Virus record (IMG/VR): IMGVR_UViG_3300034190_001683
Span: 1 to 60,243 of that record
Reading direction: 5' to 3' (one strand)
Source of the DNA: a virus
Length of the DNA: 60,243 nt
In this document: piece by piece, positions 3,794 to 60,243 of the stretch
How the letters are laid out: the number at the start of each line of letters is the position of its first letter
Position numbering within the stretch: the first letter of the stretch is position 1
The notes under the pieces: generated by a model
The model's database searches: none
Seen by the model: the letters and a program-made list of their open reading frames with translations, nothing else
Told to the model about the DNA's origin: nothing
Translations under genes and position numbers: made by a program

Positions 3794-4252
3794 ATGGGAT
3801 CTAACTATGCAAGAGGCAAAAGAGCTATCGCAGAGTGCGATAGATGTGGATTTAGGTATAAATTAAAGGAATTAAAACAGCTTACAATAAAGACAAAAAG
3901 TGTTAATATTCTGGTATGCCCAGAGTGTTTTGAGCAGGATCAGCCACAATTACAACTCGGCATGTTTCCTGTAAACGACCCTCAAGCTCTGAGGAACCCA
4001 CGACCAGATTTAACACGATTTGCAGAATCAGATTCCAGAAGTTATCAGTATGGGTTTGACCCTGTAGGTTTTAGCAATCCTTTTAATTTGGATCTAATAA
4101 ATAATTTGTTAATATCTGGAAGTGTAGGCACAATTACTATAGGAGGAGATGCGGTTTCTAGCACCGAATCTAGTAGTGATAGTAGTGATAGTAGTGATAG
4201 CGGAGACAGTGGTGATAGCGGAGACAGTGGTGATAGCGGAGGTGGGTATTAA
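3794..4252 (+). CDS. zinc-ribbon protein with Ser/Asp/Gly repeat tail
   Basis: 152 residues, ATG one base after the previous stop. The N-terminus has two CxxC pairs (CDRCG near residue 16 and CPEC near 45), a likely zinc ribbon. The middle has DPQALRNPRPD, seen in other phage proteins. The C-terminal 30 residues are SSDSSDSGDSGDSG repeats encoded by 9- and 18-base direct repeats (4170-4245). It is probably a virion-associated protein; function unknown. Confidence 0.65.
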   Translation: MGSNYARGKRAIAECDRCGFRYKLKELKQLTIKTKSVNILVCPECFEQDQPQLQLGMFPVNDPQALRNPRPDLTRFAESDSRSYQYGFDPVGFSNPFNLDLINNLLISGSVGTITIGGDAVSSTESSSDSSDSSDSGDSGDSGDSGDSGGGY

Positions 4253-4269
4253 ATAAATCAGGAGAACTT

Positions 4270-4422
4270 ATGAAAGACACCGGAAAATTTAAACAACCTA
4301 TGGATATGCCTGTACCAAAGCAAGATGGGTATCCAAACAATGTAGCAAACACTCAAACAGTTAAAACAAGAGGGACAGGTGCTGCTACAAAAGGTACAAA
4401 CTCTTCTAAGAAACTTGGATAA
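4270..4422 (+). CDS. 50-residue protein with RGTGAATKG motif
   Basis: ATG 4270 follows AGGAGAA. The product MKDTGKFKQPMDMPVPKQDG... ends RGTGAATKGTNSSKKLG. Short proteins ending in RGxGAATKG occur widely near phage connector genes; their role is unknown. The stop overlaps the next start (TAATG). It has no predicted membrane segment and is basic and probably disordered. Confidence 0.65.
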   Translation: MKDTGKFKQPMDMPVPKQDGYPNNVANTQTVKTRGTGAATKGTNSSKKLG

Positions 4423-5099
4423 TGAACTATAGTCAATTATTTGAAACTATAAAAGGTTATTGTGAGAATGACTTTCCTGATACTTCTTTTACAGATAGTG
4501 GTGGAAATACAATTACTCTTACAAGCACCGAGCAGATTAATACATTTATAGACCAAGCAGAACAAAAAGTTTTTAACTCTGTTCAGATATTAGATCTTAG
4601 GAAAAATGTGACAGGGGGTATGACTACAGGTAATCAGTATCTTACAGTTCCAACGGATTGGCTTGCTAACTTTTCTTTAGCGGTTATTGATTCTTCTGGA
4701 AACTATAGTTATTTGTTGAATAAAGATGTTAATTTTATTCGTGAGGCTTTCCCGAACCCTTCTACCACAGGGCAACCTACGCACTATGCGTTGTTTGACC
4801 AAAATTCTTATATATTGGGACCGACTCCAGACGCAAATTATTCTACTGAACTTCACTATTTTTATTATCCACCATCTATTGTTACAAGCAGTACTTCTTG
4901 GTTGGGTGATAACTTTGATTCTGTTTTACTTTATGGCGCTTTGATAGAAGCACACATATTTATGAAAGGTGAGGCAGACAGTTACCAAAGCTATGTGCAG
5001 AGGTATAATGAGTCTATGGCGTTACTGAAACAATTAAGTGAAGGTAAGAATCGTCAAGATATGTATAGAACTAAACAAGTTAGGTTGGGGGTACAATGA
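4422..5099 (+). CDS. phage adaptor-type structural protein
   Basis: 225 residues. It starts with MNYSQLFETIKGYCENDFPD and STEQINTFIDQAEQKVFNSV. The middle is beta-rich (NQYLTVPTDWLANFSLAV), and a helical C-terminus includes VLLYGALIEAHIFMKGE. This architecture is common among phage head-tail adaptor proteins next to connector genes. The precise neck layer is not assignable from sequence alone. The ATG overlaps the next gene's start region by four bases (ATGA). Confidence 0.55.
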   Translation: MNYSQLFETIKGYCENDFPDTSFTDSGGNTITLTSTEQINTFIDQAEQKVFNSVQILDLRKNVTGGMTTGNQYLTVPTDWLANFSLAVIDSSGNYSYLLNKDVNFIREAFPNPSTTGQPTHYALFDQNSYILGPTPDANYSTELHYFYYPPSIVTSSTSWLGDNFDSVLLYGALIEAHIFMKGEADSYQSYVQRYNESMALLKQLSEGKNRQDMYRTKQVRLGVQ

Positions 5100-33690: not shown

Positions 33691-35497
33691 AACTTTTACC
33701 TGAGCCTAGTTCACAATCGAGAGGTAGATCTTTGCACCAACTAGGGCGCCACTTCATACATTCTTCAACATATGCTAATCCCTCATCTACCTCTTCTTCT
33801 TTTACGATACAGGCAACAGCATCGTGTACTGTCAACACTACTTTATACCTATTAGATATTCTAGCCATTTGTTGAGCAACAACACACCGTGCCAAAGCCT
33901 GACATACATTCTCTATAAGTTTACCACCATATATACTTGTTGTGGTATCTTTCGTCTTATAAGAATATTGAGCTAGTCCATTCTTATTTGTTGTGATATG
34001 AAGTCCTTTGTATCTTTGCCATAGTTTATTCGGTAATTGAAATCCTTCTTCGGTTGGGTCAAATAGTAATGCGCCCTCTCTACCTAAAGTGTTTCCTGTT
34101 CTATCCAAGATACTTTGTAAACACCTGTCAGCTTGTCTCCACAACTCTGATATTTTGTCATATTTGGATCTGTAAACCTCAACGATATAACGACACTCAT
34201 CCTGAGATACATCTACACCAAATGTTTTTAATTGGTCTCTAAAACGCACCGCACCCATACCATAACCACAGCCAAGAATCGTAGTCTTACCTACAAACCG
34301 TTCTTCTTTTTTTATTTCTTCGACTGGTTTACCATAGATAGACTTCGCCATAATTTTATATACATCTTCTCCATTTTCAAAAGCTTCTACTAAATCATCT
34401 TGTTCAGCTAACCACGCTAATATCCTAGCTTCTATCTGAGAAGAGTCTGCATCTATAATTGTGTAACCTTCCATCGGAATAATTGACTTCTTTAACTTGT
34501 TTGCGTTTTCTCCACGTGAGGGTAAGTTTTGTAAATTTATTTTGTCGTCTCCTCCCCACCTGCCTGTATGCGCCGCATAGTATCTCAAGGGAACTGGCAT
34601 CAAGCCTCTGTTTGCTATATCAATAAATCTCTGTGTTCTGGTTTCTTCAAGAGTAGTCTTGTTAGCTAAACGTGCGCTAACTAAATCACGTACATTCTCA
34701 TTCTCATGTTCTGCTAACTTTTTAAACTCTTCGTCAGTTTTCGCAAATGCCCATGCTTCCTTACCAGTACGTGCAGATATCTTTTTGGGAGGTTCTACAT
34801 ATTTACCCAGCAGAACTGCAAATTTATCATTACTCATGAGATCTTCTTTTGATACATTTGCTTTTTCCAGCAGCGAAAGCTTTTTCTTTGATATCTCTTG
34901 TAGATGACTTGTCAGGAGTTCAACATTAAGCCTTAATCCCGGTTCAGTAAACATCTTCAATGTTATGTCTATAATCTTGAGTTCTTTTGTCGGGAATCCA
35001 GTATGTAGATGGGTGAATAAATCATAAGTAAGTTGTACGTCGTTGCGACAATACTGAGCATACTGTTCTAATTCAGATGGAGTAAAATCTAGTCTGCGTT
35101 TACCTAGCGCTTCGTGTACTTCCAAACCTTTTTCGCCAAGGTTATATTTCTTAGCCAAGTTCGCAAGACTAGCAGATTCAAATACACCGTTTACAGCACG
35201 TGCCATACACAATGTATCTAGCAGTTTGTATGGGTGTATATCAAAATACCAAGACAGAATCGCCCCATCAAACATAGTGTTGTGTGCCAACACCATAGCG
35301 TTATCCCAATCAAATTGAGACAACCATTCTTTTGTTTCTTCTTTAGTTCCAGAAAACCATTGAGTGTTTTCTTCATCAACTTTTAACGCAACACCAACTA
35401 CCTCAAACCTCTCGTCACGTATGTATTCTTCTGTGGTTAATTTAACTAAACTAAATTTTTTATCGTAATAAGTTTCAAAGTCTATTGTTATCAGCAT
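33677..35497 (-). CDS. polA: DNA polymerase, family A, with 3'-5' exonuclease
   Basis: 606 residues from ATG 35497 (a TTG three codons upstream is less likely). Exonuclease residues: D6, E8, D77 (AHNTMFD) and Y149...D153 (YCRND). Polymerase motif A is DADSSQIEAR (349-358), motif B R400...K404TTILGCGYG, and motif C LTVHDA (555-560). The residue equal to E. coli F762 is L408. It is shorter than E. coli Pol I because it has no 5' nuclease domain. It should be the replicative polymerase of the phage. Confidence 0.9.
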   Translation of the reverse strand: MLITIDFETYYDKKFSLVKLTTEEYIRDERFEVVGVALKVDEENTQWFSGTKEETKEWLSQFDWDNAMVLAHNTMFDGAILSWYFDIHPYKLLDTLCMARAVNGVFESASLANLAKKYNLGEKGLEVHEALGKRRLDFTPSELEQYAQYCRNDVQLTYDLFTHLHTGFPTKELKIIDITLKMFTEPGLRLNVELLTSHLQEISKKKLSLLEKANVSKEDLMSNDKFAVLLGKYVEPPKKISARTGKEAWAFAKTDEEFKKLAEHENENVRDLVSARLANKTTLEETRTQRFIDIANRGLMPVPLRYYAAHTGRWGGDDKINLQNLPSRGENANKLKKSIIPMEGYTIIDADSSQIEARILAWLAEQDDLVEAFENGEDVYKIMAKSIYGKPVEEIKKEERFVGKTTILGCGYGMGAVRFRDQLKTFGVDVSQDECRYIVEVYRSKYDKISELWRQADRCLQSILDRTGNTLGREGALLFDPTEEGFQLPNKLWQRYKGLHITTNKNGLAQYSYKTKDTTTSIYGGKLIENVCQALARCVVAQQMARISNRYKVVLTVHDAVACIVKEEEVDEGLAYVEECMKWRPSWCKDLPLDCELGSGKSYGDT

Positions 35498-45004: not shown

Positions 45005-45022
45005 GTAGGAGTCGACTCCTAC
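45005..45022 (-). terminator. palindrome copy 1, terminator-like between two genes
   Basis: GTAGGAGTCGACTCCTAC, a perfect 18-bp palindrome, stands just after the stop codon of the MoxR gene. On the minus strand it is followed by two As and six Ts (AATTTTTT), so it has the form of an intrinsic terminator. Confidence 0.65.
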
Positions 45023-46428: not shown

Positions 46429-46637
46429 CTCGTACTCCCATATAAATCTCTGTATGCTTCAATGACTTGCTTTGCAGACAAATCAAGTTTAGCCATTACT
46501 TCTCTCACTTGTTGTTTGGATATAGTATCCATTTCAATTTGGTCAAATACCTCTTCAACATCCTCAGGACTAATTCCAAATCGCTGTGCTACTTTTAACG
46601 CTACATCTACTGCTACATGACTGTGTGATAAATTCAT
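46425..46637 (-). CDS. 70-residue helical protein (UBA-like pattern)
   Basis: ATG 46637 with AAGGAGAGC; ATGA overlap with the next gene. Sequence VALKVAQRFGISPEDVEEVF, then VREVMAKLDLSAKQVIEAYR shows two helix-turn repeats rich in Val and Ala. No known family is certain. Confidence 0.55.
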   Translation of the reverse strand: MNLSHSHVAVDVALKVAQRFGISPEDVEEVFDQIEMDTISKQQVREVMAKLDLSAKQVIEAYRDLYGSTR

Positions 46638-46647
46638 TACGCTCTCC

Positions 46648-46833
46648 TTATTTTTTGTGAACAGTTTTTAAATCATCGGTGTTTGTGATTAGTTGTGGTG
46701 CGCCCTTGTTGTAGGCACACGCCACTGTGCGTGTAGGTGCGACGAAACAAGCAGGGCAATACTGATACCCTGCTTTCCATCTGCGTTTCGTTACTCGGAC
46801 ACCACACCTACACGTGTATTTACGCATGGGCAT
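46648..46833 (-). CDS. zinc-ribbon protein
   Basis: 61 residues. CRCGVRV and CPACFVAP give a four-cysteine zinc site; the rest is basic (RKYT, KRRWKAGYQY). A small nucleic-acid- or protein-binding zinc ribbon is likely. It overlaps the upstream gene by 14 bases. Confidence 0.6.
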   Translation of the reverse strand: MPMRKYTCRCGVRVTKRRWKAGYQYCPACFVAPTRTVACAYNKGAPQLITNTDDLKTVHKK

Positions 46834-47056
46834 AGTTTCTCCTCTTGGTAGGTTTCAGCGGTATCACTCTTTTCACACCCTTGTCATTCAGAAACACATC
46901 ACGCTCGGACATGACGAATGGTACGTTGCCATCGTGCGTAGTCGTTCCTCTACGTTCGATTACTTTCACTTTATCAAGTGCTTCTACCGTTTTGGCAATG
47001 GCTTTCATTTGAAGCAACTGTTCAGGGGTTACTACTGATTTGACTTTGAATGTCAT
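46820..47056 (-). CDS. 78-residue basic protein, first gene after the regulatory leader
   Basis: ATG 47056 with AAAGGAGAGC; an in-frame extension to 47173 runs through the palindrome and is not used. Reads MTFKVKSVVTPEQLLQMKAI, then RRGTTTHDGNVPFVMSERDV and a Lys/Arg end (KPTKRRNYAHA). First gene downstream of the leader with boxA and hairpins, thus a candidate early regulator. No family recognised. Confidence 0.6.
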   Translation of the reverse strand: MTFKVKSVVTPEQLLQMKAIAKTVEALDKVKVIERRGTTTHDGNVPFVMSERDVFLNDKGVKRVIPLKPTKRRNYAHA

Positions 47057-47127
47057 AATGCTCTCCTTTAAATAAAAATAAATAAAAACAAATTGACACA
47101 AACAGAGTGTCGATGAACACTTAGGTC

Positions 47128-47145
47128 GTAGGAGTCGACTCCTAC
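47128..47145 (-). promoter_or_regulatory. palindrome copy 3 in the early leader
   Basis: Perfect 18-bp palindrome 72 bases before the ATG at 47056. No T-run follows at once, unlike copies 1 and 2. Confidence 0.6.
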
Positions 47146-47532
47146 ACGTGGACACGTAAATGCTCATCGCCACCCTGTTTTCAAAATGGCTAGTTCCTCT
47201 GCTACTTCTCCGCAGTTCATGGTATTGAGGTTAGGAACAAAAGACGTCAAGATGCTGTAGTGCCAACACGACAAACTCGACACAACAAATCGTGCTACAA
47301 CAAAGTGACGTACGGAGGTACTCACAACGAACTACAAACAAAGGGAGGATAACCAGAAAGAAAGCTTACTCCGGCAAACAAGAGACAGAGGACTAAACCA
47401 CCCGAAACACAAAATGTCAAAGTCTTGAAACGTGGTTGCCAATGGAGAGCGGATATCGAAAGAGTCCGCATATAACTAAAGAACCAGTCATAGCCTGTAT
47501 GAATGTAGAAGCGATGCCCCTACTCCGTACCC
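47146..47532 (-). other. about 390-base transcribed leader without a clear gene
   Basis: This stretch follows the promoter at 47622-47650 on the minus strand. It holds no ORF of normal quality; one 49-codon frame (47322-47471, MRTLSISALHWQPRFK with a hydrophobic middle LVLCLLFAGVSFLSG) lacks a ribosome site. Short inverted elements occur (CACGA/TCGTG near 47268-47296). It may be a long regulatory leader or a noncoding RNA. Confidence 0.45.
47322..47471 (-). CDS. 49-residue hydrophobic micro-ORF (tentative)
   Basis: ATG 47471 to TGA 47322-47324, product with one possible membrane helix near residues 22-40. No Shine-Dalgarno is visible and no family is recognised, so it may be chance. Confidence 0.2.
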   Translation of the reverse strand: MRTLSISALHWQPRFKTLTFCVSGGLVLCLLFAGVSFLSGYPPFVCSSL

Positions 47533-47557
47533 GACGTAGGAGTCAGACTCCTACGTC
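47533..47557 (-). promoter_or_regulatory. palindrome copy 4, extended 12-bp-arm hairpin after boxA
   Basis: GACGTAGGAGTC and GACTCCTACGTC flank a single central base, making a near-perfect 25-base inverted repeat. It begins 13 bases after the boxA-like element and lies about 60 bases from the predicted start site, the position of boxB hairpins in lambda-type nut sites. Confidence 0.65.
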
Positions 47558-47570
47558 AATGGCGTTTCCG

Positions 47571-47585
47571 AATTGTTAAAGAACA
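47571..47585 (-). promoter_or_regulatory. boxA-like antitermination element
   Basis: Minus strand TGTTCTTTAACAATT. From memory the E. coli rrn boxA is TGCTCTTTAACAATT, so 14 of 15 bases agree. It lies about 30 bases after the predicted start of a leftward transcript. Confidence 0.65.
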
Positions 47586-47591
47586 AACAAC

Positions 47592-47602
47592 TTGCGTTGC
47601 AA
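47592..47602 (-). promoter_or_regulatory. short hairpin upstream of boxA
   Basis: TTGC-AAC-GCAA on the minus strand, 6 bases upstream of the boxA-like element. In rrn leaders a small boxB hairpin also precedes boxA. Confidence 0.45.
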
Positions 47603-47621
47603 TCCCAAATGGACTTCGTCC

Positions 47622-47650
47622 ATTGTATCATATTTATATGAGATTGTCAA
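47622..47650 (-). promoter_or_regulatory. strong sigma70-type leftward promoter
   Basis: Minus strand TTGACA, 17-base spacer, TACAAT. Start site expected near 47615. Palindrome copy 5 lies 29 bases upstream of the -35. Confidence 0.75.
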
Positions 47651-47678
47651 TAGGTAACCACTTTGGAATTTTCGTGAT

Positions 47679-47697
47679 GTAGGAGTCAGACTCCTAC
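47679..47697. promoter_or_regulatory. palindrome copy 5, upstream of leftward promoter
   Basis: 19-base version with one central base (GTAGGAGTC, A, GACTCCTAC). It is 29 bases upstream of the -35 at 47645-47650, like copy 7 relative to its promoter. Confidence 0.65.
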
Positions 47698-47701
47698 GTT
47701 T

Positions 47702-48056
47702 GTTCCAAGCGTTCCACGTTTGTTCCACCCTGCGGAACGATAGTTTTGTCAAATATATCATGAGGTTACGTGCGATAGTGTCAGCCTGTTCCGCTGTTCC
47801 ACCCTAATACAAACACCTGCCGAGAGGGTCGAATGAAGAGTTTCAACCACGACATCTTTGATACCAGTTATGGGAGGTCGTTCGTATATGTTACCTTTTA
47901 CAATAATAATAATAATAATAATAATAATATCCTTTAGAATCAAAAACTTAGGTGCAAAAAAGTCTGTTCCACCTCTGGAACGCACGTAAACTTTCTTCAA
48001 TAATATCAAGTGCTTAGAGTGTTCCACAATCTGGAACAGGCTGGAACAGCCGGAAC
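47702..48056. repeat. GTTCC/GGAAC iteron-like repeat cluster
   Basis: Twelve copies of GTTCC(A) or (T)GGAAC: forward at 47702, 47711, 47722, 47788, 47796, 47966, 48021; reverse at 47734, 47977, 48033, 48043, 48052. Several form inverted pairs (GTTCCA-4-TGGAAC at 47966-47981; TGTTCCA-5-TGGAACA at 48020-48038). The cluster contains no gene and surrounds an AT-rich (AAT)9 tract. Candidate replication origin or operator array. Confidence 0.65.
47902..47928. repeat. (AAT)9 microsatellite
   Basis: Nine AAT units in the middle of the GTTCC cluster. An easily melted tract here fits a DNA-unwinding element, but could also be a neutral repeat. Confidence 0.8.
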
Positions 48057-48062
48057 AACGAC

Positions 48063-48091
48063 ATTATATGTATATTAGATGTAGGAGTCGA
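48063..48091 (-). promoter_or_regulatory. promoter with -35 inside palindrome copy 6
   Basis: Minus strand TCGACT, 17-base spacer, TATAAT. The -35 (48086-48091) lies inside the palindrome at 48081-48098, so a protein bound there would cover it. Confidence 0.5.
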
Positions 48092-48098
48092 CTCCTAC
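48081..48098. promoter_or_regulatory. palindrome copy 6, overlaps a -35 element
   Basis: Perfect 18-bp GTAGGAGTCGACTCCTAC. See the promoter entry for its overlap with a -35 hexamer. Confidence 0.7.
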
Positions 48099-48209
48099 GC
48101 CACTTTAGTATGATGTTATGTATTTGTAATCTAGTATTTGTATGATGTAATTTATTTTTTACGATGTGGATTTGGTTCGTAGCTTGACTGAACTTGACAA
48201 CTCTTGATG

Positions 48210-48296
48210 GAACTGGCTTCGAAGAAGCCCGCCGTCCTTCAGACGGCGAAGCGGGGCGGCGCTGCCTTTGCGACGCCCCGCTTTTGACACCAGTTC
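48210..48296. other. GC-rich multi-hairpin element (RNA or DNA structure)
   Basis: An 87-base element, far more GC-rich than the genome. GAACTGG and CCAGTTC close it; inside are GGCTT/AAGCC, a 7-bp stem CGCCGTC/GACGGCG with 5-base loop, and a 9-bp stem AGCGGGGCG/CGCCCCGCT. The fold is cloverleaf-like, but no anticodon arm or standard TTCRA loop is present, so it is not a tRNA I can support. It lies beyond the terminator of the gene at 48364. Confidence 0.5.
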
Positions 48297-48316
48297 TCTG
48301 CGAGAAATTTTAGGCG

Positions 48317-48344
48317 AAAAAAAACCCCGACCGGAGTCGGGGTT
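48317..48344 (-). terminator. intrinsic terminator of the gene at 48364-49011
   Basis: Minus strand: AACCCCGAC, four-base loop TCCG, GTCGGGGTT, followed by a run of Ts. It stands 20 bases after the stop codon and would stop leftward transcription. Confidence 0.85.
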
Positions 48345-48363
48345 TGTGAGGAGTGTTGCAAGG

Positions 48364-49011
48364 TTAGGCTTTCTTTTCGTCAGCCTGTTGAGCGTTTGTG
48401 AGAGCATCTCTGACGTAGGACAACACGTCTAGCATTGGAGCGTGATTCTCAGCATCAGCCTTTTCTTGTAGTTTGATAATGGATTTTGAAAAGTCTTCGA
48501 CTATTTCACTTTTGTTTTTATCAGCCTTAATTCTAACCTGATAGAAAACATCGCCATTGCTATTGCTAGAGCCAGACTGTCTCGCAGGGTTGAAACTGAA
48601 TTTCTCTTTATTGTTGACAACATTGCGGAGAATCTTCAAATACGTTTGAACAGTTTGAGCCGTATAGAATGGCTCGCCATCTTCATCGACTAGGTCGTAA
48701 AGATATTGTGCAATCGCATTGGCGTTAGGGCAAGACCTAGCGGTATCTTGCGTTTGCCTAGTCTCAAAACCCTTCTGACCATTTTCGCCTTTAGCGTAAC
48801 CAGCCTTTCCAATCGTGACGCCAGCCTTTCGTAGTTCCTTGGCTTTGTCATCGAATTGTTTTTGCTTATCCTTAACGCCAGCCTTAGCGTTTATAAGAGC
48901 GTCTTGAGCGATATCCAAATCCGCCTTTGCGCCAGTACCTTCTAAGAAAGCCTTAGTAAGACCGATGGATAAAGCAACAGTATTAACAACAACGTTTGTT
49001 TTGGTAGTCAT
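48364..49011 (-). CDS. 215-residue hypothetical early protein
   Basis: ATG 49011 with AAGGAGAAA; an upstream in-frame methionine at 49080 lies inside the promoter and is not used. Helical, Ala/Lys-rich: LDIAQDALINAKAGVKDKQK, then FETRQTQDTARSCPNANAIA and VQTYLKILRNVVNNKEKFSF. It is the first gene of a monocistronic leftward unit with its own promoter and terminator. Function unknown; possibly a regulator or DNA-binding protein, given its early, insulated position. Confidence 0.75.
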   Translation of the reverse strand: MTTKTNVVVNTVALSIGLTKAFLEGTGAKADLDIAQDALINAKAGVKDKQKQFDDKAKELRKAGVTIGKAGYAKGENGQKGFETRQTQDTARSCPNANAIAQYLYDLVDEDGEPFYTAQTVQTYLKILRNVVNNKEKFSFNPARQSGSSNSNGDVFYQVRIKADKNKSEIVEDFSKSIIKLQEKADAENHAPMLDVLSYVRDALTNAQQADEKKA

Positions 49012-49070
49012 AATTTTCTCCTTCAAAATGACTGTTAATGAAATATGGCAATTACCGCAACCACAACTAT

Positions 49071-49099
49071 ATAGTCTCACAACCCTGTTACACTGTCAA
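49071..49099 (-). promoter_or_regulatory. leftward promoter for the gene at 48364
   Basis: Minus strand TTGACA, 17-base spacer, GACTAT (3/6 to consensus -10), with a TATATA nearby. Palindrome copy 7 is 34 bases upstream of its -35. Confidence 0.6.
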
Positions 49100-49132
49100 A
49101 TAATACGTGGTAATTAATTGTCGTGTGTTGTC

Positions 49133-49150
49133 GTAGGAGTCGACTCCTAC
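49133..49150. promoter_or_regulatory. palindrome copy 7 at the divergent boundary
   Basis: Perfect 18-bp copy between the leftward and rightward units. Flanked by GC-rich poly-C/G sequence to the right (49180-49200). Confidence 0.7.
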
Positions 49151-49296
49151 GCCACCCCTTTTCGAGTTATAGCCTAGAGAACTGGTCTCCCCCACCCCCC
49201 TGTGTGTGTCAGATGGGACCCGGCTGTCTGTACTGTGTGTTTTGCTCGTTAGATTTCAAATTTTTTGAAAATAGACCCACCCCCTATTGACTTTTT
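49151..49296. other. divergent intergenic region
   Basis: 146 bases between the two transcription units. It holds a C-run (CCCCCACCCCCC), a short inverted TTTCAAATTTTTTGAAA, and TTGACT just before the terminase gene that may serve as a -35. I see no gene and no confident rightward promoter. Confidence 0.5.
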
Positions 49297-49950
49297 ATGA
49301 GACCCGTGGTAGGTTCAAAATCTAACAAGTACCCCCTAACGAAAAAAGGAGTCCCGTTTCCTCTCATGCCACTAACAATTACACCAGACGTAGGAATACC
49401 ACTACCATTTGATGTAACACCAGAAGAGGTAAAGGATTTTAGAAAGAAGGCAAAAGCAGCCTTTAACACTATCAAATCTCTACTAGATGCTGGCGCTCAG
49501 ATGCCAGAATTAGACGAGGGTACATCCACACAAGCACACGAATTAATGGCACGGGAAAAACTCCCGGTTGCTAAGACACCGCCCGGTGTAATAATAAAAC
49601 TAGAAGCCTTGCTGACTCATTATGATCATGAGTTTCTAAATGCAAATGACAGGCTCGCAAATTATGTAACGAATAGATTATTGGAAGAAACTGAGAATGA
49701 AGATGCACGTTTTCGATTAAAGGCATTGGAGTTGCTTGGAAAGCGCAGAGGGGTAAACTTATTCTCAGAGCAACACGATGTCACAATAAGACAGAAACCT
49801 ACCGAAGATATAGAAAACAGATTGAATCAGATATTGGGTAGGTATGTAACAGATGTAGAAACAGTGGAGGAGAACACTAATGAACTTTTAGAGAATGAAT
49901 CAGATCACACCTCTACAGATTATCAAGAAAAACCCGCATCTACTAAGTAA
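49297..49950 (+). CDS. terminase small subunit-like protein
   Basis: 217 residues if ATG 49297 is used; ATG 49366 (with AAGGAG 14 bases upstream) would give 194 residues starting MPLTITPDVGIPLPFDVTPE. The centre is helical (VKDFRKKAKAAFNTIKSLLD; AHELMAREKLPVAKTPPGVI) and the tail is acidic. It precedes and overlaps the large terminase gene, the usual place of the DNA-recognition subunit, so the call is mainly contextual. Confidence 0.6.
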   Translation: MRPVVGSKSNKYPLTKKGVPFPLMPLTITPDVGIPLPFDVTPEEVKDFRKKAKAAFNTIKSLLDAGAQMPELDEGTSTQAHELMAREKLPVAKTPPGVIIKLEALLTHYDHEFLNANDRLANYVTNRLLEETENEDARFRLKALELLGKRRGVNLFSEQHDVTIRQKPTEDIENRLNQILGRYVTDVETVEENTNELLENESDHTSTDYQEKPASTK

Positions 49951-51421
49951 GTTACCTGCTGAAGTAAAAGCAGAAGTAGCAGATTATTTAGAAGAGCTTG
50001 CAGATAGAGAACGGTCTGAAAAGGCTAAGAGTTCTTTCATGGAGTTTGTTACACAGGTCTGGCCTAGCTTTATTCATGGCGCACACCACAAGAGGATGGC
50101 AGGGGCGTTTGAAGAAGTGATGAGTGGACAATGTAAAAGACTTATCGTAAATATGCCTCCACGGCATACGAAGTCAGAATTTGCTAGTTATTTGTTGCCA
50201 GCATGGTTTTTAGGGAAGTATCCTGATAAAAAAGTAATCCAAACCTCGCATACGGCAGAACTTGCGGTTGGTTTTGGTAGAAAGGTACGAAATCTTGTCG
50301 ATTCTGAAACGTATAAAAACATATTTCCAGACGTTGGACTTCAGGCTGACTCAAAGGCGGCTGGGCGTTGGGCTACCAACAAGGGAGGAGACTACTTTGC
50401 TATCGGTGTTGGAGGCGCTGTTACGGGTAAAGGTGCGGATGTCCTCATCATTGATGACCCTCATTCGGAGCAAGAAGCAGCGCAAGCCGAAATAAACCCT
50501 GAAATCTACGATAAAACCTACGAATGGTACACATCTGGTCCTCGACAGCGTCTACAACCGGGCGGAGCGATCATAATTGTTATGACAAGGTGGTCAAAAA
50601 GGGACTTAACAGGTCAAGTTATGCGTGCTGCAGCGCAAAGAGGTGGTGAAGATTGGAAAGTTATAGAATTTCCTGCGATTTTACCGAGTGGTAACCCACT
50701 TTGGCCTCAATTTTGGCCTCTAATCGAGCTAAATGCACTAAAAGAAGAGCTACCTAACTCAAAATGGATGGCTCAGTACCAACAAAACCCCACATCTGAG
50801 GGTTCAGCCATTGTAAAACGAGAATGGTGGCAGATTTGGGAGAAAGAAGACCCACCTGCTTGTGAATTTGTCCTACAATCTTGGGATACAGCGTTTGAAA
50901 AGAACAATCGAGCAGACTATTCAGCCTGTACTACATGGGGTGTGTTTTATAAAGAGGATGATACAGGTGTGCCACAGGCTCAGATTATGTTATTAAATGC
51001 GTTTCGCAGAAGAATGGAGTTTCCAGAGCTAAAAAAAGTTGCTTTAGAAGAGTATACGGATTGGGAACCAGATTCTATAATAATAGAGAAGAAAGCATCG
51101 GGCGCTCCGCTAATTTATGAGATGAGAGCGATGGGAGTGCCTGTGCAGGAGTTTACTCCTAGTAAAGGTAACGACAAAATATCACGATTAAACGCAGTTT
51201 CAGATTTATTCGCTTCGGGCAGAGTATGGATACCCAACACAAACTGGGCAGAAGAGGTTGTAGATGAAGTAGCAAGTTTTCCTGCAGGAGAGCATGATGA
51301 CTATGTGGACTCAACTTCTTTAGCAATGATGAGATTTAGAAAAGGTGGGTTTATACGCACTCTTCTTGATGAAGAAGATGAAGCACCAAATTATAGAAGG
51401 CACAGAGAGCCTTACTACTAA
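49895..51421 (+). CDS. terL: terminase large subunit
   Basis: 508 residues. ATPase motif MPPRHTKSE (87-95), Walker B LIIDDPH (184-190), QRLQPGGAIIIVMTRWS (about 218-233) and a nuclease domain with SWDTAFE (D331) and EHDDYVDST near 475-480 identify a P22/T4-type packaging motor. Start overlaps the small subunit gene by 56 bases in another frame. It pumps DNA into the head and cuts it. Confidence 0.9.
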   Translation: MNQITPLQIIKKNPHLLSKLPAEVKAEVADYLEELADRERSEKAKSSFMEFVTQVWPSFIHGAHHKRMAGAFEEVMSGQCKRLIVNMPPRHTKSEFASYLLPAWFLGKYPDKKVIQTSHTAELAVGFGRKVRNLVDSETYKNIFPDVGLQADSKAAGRWATNKGGDYFAIGVGGAVTGKGADVLIIDDPHSEQEAAQAEINPEIYDKTYEWYTSGPRQRLQPGGAIIIVMTRWSKRDLTGQVMRAAAQRGGEDWKVIEFPAILPSGNPLWPQFWPLIELNALKEELPNSKWMAQYQQNPTSEGSAIVKREWWQIWEKEDPPACEFVLQSWDTAFEKNNRADYSACTTWGVFYKEDDTGVPQAQIMLLNAFRRRMEFPELKKVALEEYTDWEPDSIIIEKKASGAPLIYEMRAMGVPVQEFTPSKGNDKISRLNAVSDLFASGRVWIPNTNWAEEVVDEVASFPAGEHDDYVDSTSLAMMRFRKGGFIRTLLDEEDEAPNYRRHREPYY

Positions 51422-59538: not shown

Positions 59539-59801
59539 TGGAAAAAGAAGAGATACAGAAAATCTTCAGAGGTGATATTAAAAGTGAAGTTGCTGTTCAG
59601 GCAAATGAGATAAAACACCTTCATTCTGACGTAGAGGATATGAAAGCTGATATAGAAGAAATTAAAAAATCTCTTGCAGAGATTCACAAAGTATTATCAG
59701 AGGCTAGGGGTGGTTGGAAAACATTGATGTGGGCAGCAGGCGCAGGAAGCGCTGTAACTGCTTTTATTATTGCAATACAACAAATTTTTTGGGGAAAGTA
59801 A
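59538..59801 (+). CDS. coiled-coil protein with C-terminal membrane segment
   Basis: 87 residues. A heptad region (ANEIKHLHSDVEDMKADIEE IKK...) is followed by one hydrophobic helix (LMWAAGAGSAVTAFIIAIQQ). A longer frame from GTG 59526 is possible but ATG 59538 overlaps the previous stop. It is the complete version of the partial gene at 1-137. Confidence 0.75.
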   Translation: MEKEEIQKIFRGDIKSEVAVQANEIKHLHSDVEDMKADIEEIKKSLAEIHKVLSEARGGWKTLMWAAGAGSAVTAFIIAIQQIFWGK

Positions 59802-60190
59802 TGAATCAAAAAGAAAAAAAACGTCTTTTAAGTGTTGACGCTATACCCGCTGCAGGAAAGATGGATGAGTTTATAGAAAAAAGAATGCAAGCAAAATTCC
59901 CAAAGCTGTACCCTGATGATGAAGCAAAGAAAACAATGTCAAAAAAAGACAAGGCTGAGATTGATGCTTTTATGAAACGTTATGAAAAAGATAAAGATCT
60001 TACAGATGAGTTTAAGAAAAAAATTAGGGGGGAATTAGAAGACGGCTATGCACGGGTTAGAGGTAAATCAAAAGCTCAAAGTGGAGGCATGAAAGCCGGA
60101 GGTAAAGTAAAAGCTAAGAAAAAAACAACCAGAAAATTTAGAGGTGATGGTATTGTTAAAAAAGGCAAGACTAAATGTAAGATGAGATAA
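59801..60190 (+). CDS. lysine/arginine-rich small protein, short allele
   Basis: 129 residues. N-terminus MNQKEKKRLLSVDAIPAAGK and a helical body differ from the gene at 137-667, but the end GGKVKAKKKTTRKFRGDGIV KKGKTKCKMR agrees with it. Same gene order on both sides. Strain-variable or duplicated locus. Function unknown. Confidence 0.75.
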   Translation: MNQKEKKRLLSVDAIPAAGKMDEFIEKRMQAKFPKLYPDDEAKKTMSKKDKAEIDAFMKRYEKDKDLTDEFKKKIRGELEDGYARVRGKSKAQSGGMKAGGKVKAKKKTTRKFRGDGIVKKGKTKCKMR

Positions 60191-60202
60191 AGGAGGTTTA
60201 GG

Positions 60203-60243
60203 GTGGCATATTTAATTAGTAACATTCCGTATACAAAGGTTTG
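60203..60243 (+). CDS. start of the 224-residue conserved phage protein (partial)
   Basis: GTG 60203 with AGGAGG ahead, identical to the start of the complete gene at 680-1354. Cut by the window end after 13 codons. Confidence 0.8.
   Translation, partial: MAYLISNIPYTKV

Follow-up and report, generated by a model that had tools for sequence, protein, structure and literature searches.

A GC-rich hairpin element between paired GANRCCAGTT sites next to a putative iteron-type origin in a podovirus-like phage group

The window analyzed here, a virus record of 60,243 bp, carries at positions 48210-48296 (unstranded; folding and genome scan) a GC-rich element made of three tandem GC hairpins between inverted GANRCCAGTT sites. 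Comparison with related loci suggested that this element is most likely a cis element acting at the DNA level, not a cloverleaf RNA, and that it may be the right-hand GC block of a putative iteron-type origin, or of an origin-like control region, in a podovirus-like phage group, a reading to which we give a probability of about 0.5. The order that recurs in relatives begins with iterons that surround an AT-rich core, continues with a slot at whose end the conserved main site TGACACCAGTTC stands, and closes with the leftward terminator belonging to an early gene.

Position and fold of the element

Leftward genes occupy about 26-49 kb of the window and rightward genes most of the remainder. The element lies at the right-hand end of a gap of 1.3 kb without a convincing gene, located between the first leftward gene (48364-49011, minus strand) and the next leftward gene at about 46820-47056. 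The terminase genes lie to the right of the early gene, with the small subunit starting about 1.1 kb right of the element, and the large terminase (49895-51421) has 52-56% identity with its counterparts in 023Pt_psg01, the Pelagibacter phages HTVC027P/HTVC023P, and DSL-LC04. A terminator scan showed that the early gene is followed by a leftward site resembling an intrinsic terminator (48322-48345, minus strand), which agrees with the sequence-only reading that had placed the element beyond a terminator.

The first leftward gene encodes 215 aa and belongs to an orphan family, assigned as a blastp component to which 31 of the 36 neighbor proteins belong, and its stop codon is 62-104 nt from the main site in 32 of the 36 loci in which the neighbor gene was found. 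No usable match was found for this gene in Pfam, PHROG or PDB. The AlphaFold model of the family member from L006 was all-helical (pLDDT 76, pTM 0.47) and had no Foldseek match in PDB at E<=0.001, while a pattern search for close relatives of the protein returned only L112, which ends inside the gene. In L091, an unrelated gene (4251-4976, minus strand) replaces the early gene, with 93.5% identity to the window in the immediate left flank and 98% in the right one.

The results of folding showed that the structured GC-rich element is real. The RNA minimum free energy (MFE) of 48210-48296 was -49.3 kcal/mol on the plus strand (z -6.2), with none of 200 dinucleotide shuffles as low, and -50.2 on the minus strand (z -5.3); DNA parameters gave -33.0 and -31.0 for the two strands (z -7.2 and -6.0). 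When the genome was scanned in 6016 overlapping 87-nt segments with a step of 10 nt, the four lowest MFEs were all at 48201-48231 (-46.8 to -40.7, the next being -32.5), and the GC peak was also at the element, which has 65.5% GC vs 38.7% for the genome. The fold consists of hairpin 1 (48215-48229, plus strand; GGCTTC-GAA-GAAGCC; folding and stem comparison), hairpin 2 (48230-48248, plus; CGCCGTC-CTTCA-GACGGCG) and hairpin 3 (48249-48283, plus; 10+3 bp), the last two from folding and homologue comparison. Hairpin 3 is followed by a T-run at 48282-48285 in the rightward direction, making it terminator-like on the plus strand.

The three hairpins are bracketed by 7-bp inverted arms, GAACTGG and CCAGTTC, which had been taken as a closing helix around the three stems. 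Such a helix is worth about 2 kcal/mol, with -48.5 for the fold that contains it and has hairpin 1 cut to 4 bp, vs -46.5 for the three hairpins. Two bases are common to the helix and hairpin 1, and the RNA MFE structure gives up hairpin 1 and keeps the helix, while the optimum with DNA parameters on either strand has the three hairpins and lacks the helix.

The element probably does not code for protein, as had been read from the absence of an overlapping gene. Mechanical ORFs traverse it, for example 48159-48407 (minus strand, 82 aa), and were rejected by eye: 1-nt indels between the window and L091 shift the frame in and just after the element, and coding is therefore unlikely. Two of the checks proposed earlier for a structured RNA were negative: ARAGORN gave no match in the window, and Rfam 15 gave no match at gathering score in the window and none at E<=1 in 46500-49500. 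A nucleotide search of phage records with 47600-49400 also gave no match.

Conservation of the hairpins could be followed in the homologous block that, among the sequences found, three contigs carry, the window, L091 and L115, of which the latter two have identical elements. Among 26 stem pairs compared between the window and L091, one, in stem 3, had both bases replaced (G-C to A-T) and none was broken; one A is missing at the end of a stem, and all other differences fall in loops or bulges. The hairpins thus look maintained, but the covariation is thin, because this form occurs in two distinct sequences only, and with these two a shuffle control for covariation (264/500) was uninformative. 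Hairpin-templated repair could also mimic a compensatory change.

GANRCCAGTT sites and the GC-rich slot in relatives

GANRCCAGTT is found five times in the window vs 0.84 expected, and none of 100 shuffles had as many. Four copies, starting at 47860, 48211, 48286 and 49180, lie within 1.33 kb, and one stray copy is at 34592. The left arm of the "closing helix" is an inverted copy, GAAGCCAGTT (48211-48220, minus strand), and the right arm is part of the conserved main site TGACACCAGTTC (48285-48296, plus). The other two clustered copies are GATACCAGTT, inside the iteron-like region (47860-47869, plus), and GAGACCAGTT, which precedes the terminase small subunit gene in the divergent intergenic region (49180-49189, minus). 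Since the motif was partly read from the window, its clustering there is partly post hoc; a sounder test is provided by the relatives, although the motif was shaped with their help as well.

In the viral collection, the TGACACCAGTTC-type motif followed by a terminator start was found in 31 contigs with a strict pattern and in 50 with a looser one; some of the latter, among them those in L117 and L134, seem to be chance matches. When bacterial and archaeal genomes (257 billion bases) were scanned with the looser pattern, 14 matches were obtained vs 14.5 expected with equal base frequencies, and no terminator hairpin was seen by eye among the 14, so that the proposed host-derived origin of the element was not supported by matches above chance level. 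In the 32 of 80 terminase loci that have 2.5 kb to the left, GANRCCAGTT occurred 16 times in the 1.9 kb before terminase (9 of 32 loci) and not once in the other 236.8 kb; among 200 scrambled draws only the motif itself reached 16, the best different pattern giving 5. ACCAGTTC was found 26 times in 60.8 kb of this region (14 of 32 loci) vs once in 236.8 kb elsewhere. It was absent from the region in 18 of the 32 loci, and the site was also absent around the terminase of HTVC027P and DSL-LC04 (stretches of 31.4 and 29.2 kb), indicating that the site is a feature of a subgroup.

The pairing of sites was then counted in relatives. From 58 selected sites in their loci, 35 were non-redundant, and those 28 that have 190 nt on their left side were used. 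A second CCAGTT/AACTGG core was present within 190 nt in 20 of the 28 loci, inverted in 12 and direct in 8, vs a mean of 2.0 of 28 and a maximum of 8 in 1000 shuffles; it was absent from the other 8. Once the two copies are brought into the same orientation, each reads GANRCCAGTTYY in most cases. Within the 12 inverted pairs, the G agrees in 11 and the A in 12, while the next base agrees in 0. The mixture of inverted and direct pairs, together with the mismatched base after GA, suggested that we are dealing with a DNA site and not with a base-paired helix, and the closing arms are very probably a pair of DNA sites that behave as a protein site would. The earlier picture of stems inside a closing helix is thus kept for the three hairpins and given up for the helix.

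Several other observations were made on these sites. A sigma-70-like promoter at the TTGACA in the main site was considered by eye and rejected, with no consistent -10. In L032, L037, L044 and L048, tandem or near-tandem copies of AACTGG/AACTGGT lie about 2.1-2.2 kb before terminase, the closest starts being 10 bp apart, and no TGACACCAGTTC was seen in the region with these copies. Among the matches listed for literature containing GACACCAGTTC, 10 of 16, there was no phage paper.

The 110 nt to the left of the main site, here called the slot, had a mean GC content of 59% over 29 loci. C exceeded G in 27 of them, with means of 43 C and 22 G per 110 nt, the exceptions being the window (33 C, 33 G) and L091 (29 C, 36 G). 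Compared with its own locus, the slot was in the top 5% for GC in 20 of the 29 loci and for strand bias in 15. Of 31 loci tested, the window and L091 only were folded at z<-2 in the slot. These slot statistics indicated that relatives tend to keep the slot GC-rich, mostly C-rich, and open, and that the window lineage fills it with hairpins.

These counts bear directly on the idea that the element encodes a structured noncoding RNA, a small RNA or riboregulator on the plus or minus strand in which the 7-bp arms would form the closing helix. The very stable fold on both strands, the one compensatory pair without a broken stem relative to L091, and a flank (48146-48209) that is near-identical in L091 speak for such an RNA. 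Evidence against it is given by the 29 of 31 loci with z above -2, by closing arms that are direct or single in many relatives, by the base after the conserved GA that matches in none of the inverted pairs, and by the loss of the closing helix under DNA parameters; moreover, no Rfam family was matched, and no promoter-like site on the plus strand was listed just upstream of the element. We therefore consider a structured RNA unlikely.

An equally unlikely explanation is that the element is a rightward terminator only, formed by hairpin 3 and TTTT back to back with the leftward terminator, and that the rest is incidental. The GC-rich stem of 10+3 bp followed by TTTT in the window has similar counterparts in L091 and L115, and L003 has a hairpin with T6 in the equivalent slot. 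Most of the relatives are C-rich and G-poor there, and a C-rich, G-poor strand is a property of Rho sites. On the other side, no rightward gene was seen ending at the element, the T-run is just TTTT where at least 5 T in 8 would be expected of an intrinsic terminator, and a simple scan does not list hairpin 3. A terminator alone would also leave the conserved TGACACCAGTTC and the clustering of sites unexplained.

Iteron-like repeats, palindromes and evidence for a possible origin

To the left of the element, the window has an iteron-like array (47580-48057, unstranded) that contains one AGAACA and six TGTTCC, followed on the right by three GGAACA. The AT-richest stretch, with a TAA repeat, lies inside the array (47897-47935, unstranded) and is a candidate unwinding element. 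The array region is non-coding, as judged in the window only.

Array counts were made for those 23 of the 35 non-redundant sites whose left side extends over 900 nt. GGAACA, TGAACA and AGAACA, taken on both strands, occurred 248 times vs 30.9 expected over the 790 nt that adjoin the slot on its left, and were at least twofold enriched in 23 of 23 loci. With no motif preset, GAACA/TGTTC ranked first of 512 5-mer pairs (261 vs 39.5, at least twofold in 22 of 23). In 21 of 23 loci, the mean position of TGTTC was left of that of GAACA. The AT-richest 40 nt fell within the array in 23 of 23 loci, where the mean span of the array is 56% of the stretch. The distance from the right-most iteron to the site was 137-294 nt in 22 of 23 loci and 459 in one. 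The iteron-like repeats occur in both orientations, with a commonest neighbor spacing of 8-10 bp.

Of the 80 terminase loci, many of which are too short for a decision, two have DnaA boxes at the site. L003 has at 31-105 six exact boxes (TTATCCACA/TGTGGATAA) in about 65 bp directly right of TTTTTTGACACCAGTTCCC, and L001 has two exact boxes near the site; a single box is at -2160 in L066. The two exact boxes of the window are distant (40352 and 42583), with none near the element. The GC-skew minimum near 48 kb coincides with the switch of the coding strand and so gives no independent evidence for an origin. The AAGCGG hexamer, considered as a primosome site, was dropped and is not kept in L091.

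The region also contains palindromes. An 18-bp palindrome, GTAGGAGTCGACTCCTAC (48081-48098, unstranded), lies between the array and the element and is one of seven perfect 18-19 bp copies of GTAGGAGTC(N)GACTCCTAC at 45005, 46178, 47128, 47536, 47679, 48081 and 49133, which sit in or beside the leftward block. Seven copies were found in each of L091 and L115, all of them GTAGAAGTC(N)GACTTCTAC, and the gene swap in L091 accompanies this change of palindrome. Other relatives have multi-copy palindromes of their own with the same GTC(N)GAC center (AATACTGTCTGACAGTATT, AATAATGTCAGACATTATT). From these sequences, the palindromes resemble a set of operators that change their specificity together. Comparable palindromes, 17 bp long, are described for cluster O mycobacteriophages in the part of PMC4351075 available.

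Taken as parts of an origin, these features would work as follows. A predicted initiator would bind the iterons and melt the AT-rich core. A second DNA-binding protein, from phage or host, may bind GANRCCAGTT at 47860, 48211, 48286 and 49180, and the bound protein could connect the origin with the divergent early/late promoter region. Between the paired sites, the GC slot would keep transcription or unwinding that leaves the origin rightward from entering the early gene on its antisense strand; in the window phage, the means of blocking would be hairpin 3 and its T-run as an intrinsic terminator, and in the C-rich relatives perhaps a Rho-type C-rich region. On the base composition and folds at hand, a terminator or barrier role of the slot is plausible, at somewhat less than even odds.

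Packaging, gene exchange and relation to known systems

The sequence-only reading had also allowed for a packaging or recombination site, and neither is favored. As a DNA packaging site (cos or pac), the element would be suitably near the terminase genes, and contig ends do cluster beside it: of 51 contigs, 11 end within 230 nt to the left of the site (L094, L108, L118, L098, L122, L096, L005, L131, L109, L129 and L095; nine of these loci are as long as their contigs, and L118 and L122 are at a contig end) vs one to the right (L115). Yet these ends are scattered from 2 to 229 nt with no single base preferred, and strain variation or GC-rich sequence can break assemblies. One of the 51, the right-hand L115, was included manually, at least two others (L117 and L134) seem to be chance matches of the pattern, and the search pattern hides ends in the first few dozen nt on the right. 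In addition, conservation is higher (82-83% in L001-L003) in the block that immediately precedes the small subunit gene. The ends of the window itself are alike, 1-154 matching 59665-59818 at 93.5% and 581-720 matching 60104-60243 at 94.3% with the middle unaligned, which may perhaps reflect a repeated gene or an assembly running past the full circle with a strain variant; the latter suggests no break at the element. A presumed resemblance of the element's letters to lambda and P2 cos was dropped. Overall, a packaging site seems improbable.

The weakest explanation, that the sites flank an exchangeable early gene as a recombination or cassette boundary, fits the unrelated genes that the window and L091 carry between the element and the divergent promoter region within closely similar flanks, as well as GANRCCAGTT on both sides of the early gene (48286 and 49180), but it is very improbable: one gene family in 31 of 36 loci means that the early gene is not a free cassette, no integrase was seen by eye among the listed ORFs of at least 120 aa, the exact right-hand copy was present only in L001 and L003 among the 80 terminase loci, and ordinary homologous recombination in the flanks suffices.

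With its iteron-like repeats and AT-rich core, the putative origin has the anatomy of known iteron-type origins, as described in the part of PMC5043065 available. The same source, to that extent, describes the phage lambda ori in gene O as short initiator sites arrayed beside some 40 bp of AT-rich sequence, with early control signals nearby, similar to the arrangement here, and the iteron plasmids P1, RK2 and R6K as combining iterons with an AT-rich region and DnaA sites; of the latter, L003 has an array. The lambda iterons, however, are 19-bp inverted repeats inside gene O, while the cores here are 5-6 bp and lie where there is no convincing gene; unlike in lambda, the repeats here are on both sides of the AT-rich core and a GC block with another site at both its borders follows them. 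In plasmids, most iterons are direct repeats in helical phase, in contrast to the two orientations and the 8-10 bp commonest spacing found here. A non-coding phage region has also been proposed as an origin in the mycobacteriophages RedRock, Alma and others (PMC7157519, in part); those origins depend on a transcribed RNA, whereas the putative origin here has iteron-like repeats. Hairpin 3 followed by TTTT resembles intrinsic terminators, from which it differs by its short T-run and its setting among three hairpins and paired sites.

Iteron origins are already known, and no description of the putative one presented here was found in the literature searched, as far as its text was accessible. 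The accessible text of PMC9599517 makes no mention of a replication origin, noncoding or intergenic sequence, GC skew or a terminator, and that of PMC12753301 makes no mention of noncoding, intergenic, promoter, antisense or ncRNA. As a tentative and rather unlikely extension of the origin reading, facing GAACA iterons, an AT-rich core and a one-sided GC block between a GANRCCAGTT pair might together be an undescribed architecture, a polar trap for forks or transcription linked to the early/late promoter switch, in which the block swaps between C-rich single-strand and hairpin forms and the sites stay fixed.

These results also carry a lesson, that a convincing "cloverleaf" in a single sequence can be inverted protein sites around separate hairpins. 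If the reading as the GC block of an iteron-type origin is right, it would place an origin, together with a second shared protein-binding site, in a group of uncultured phages.
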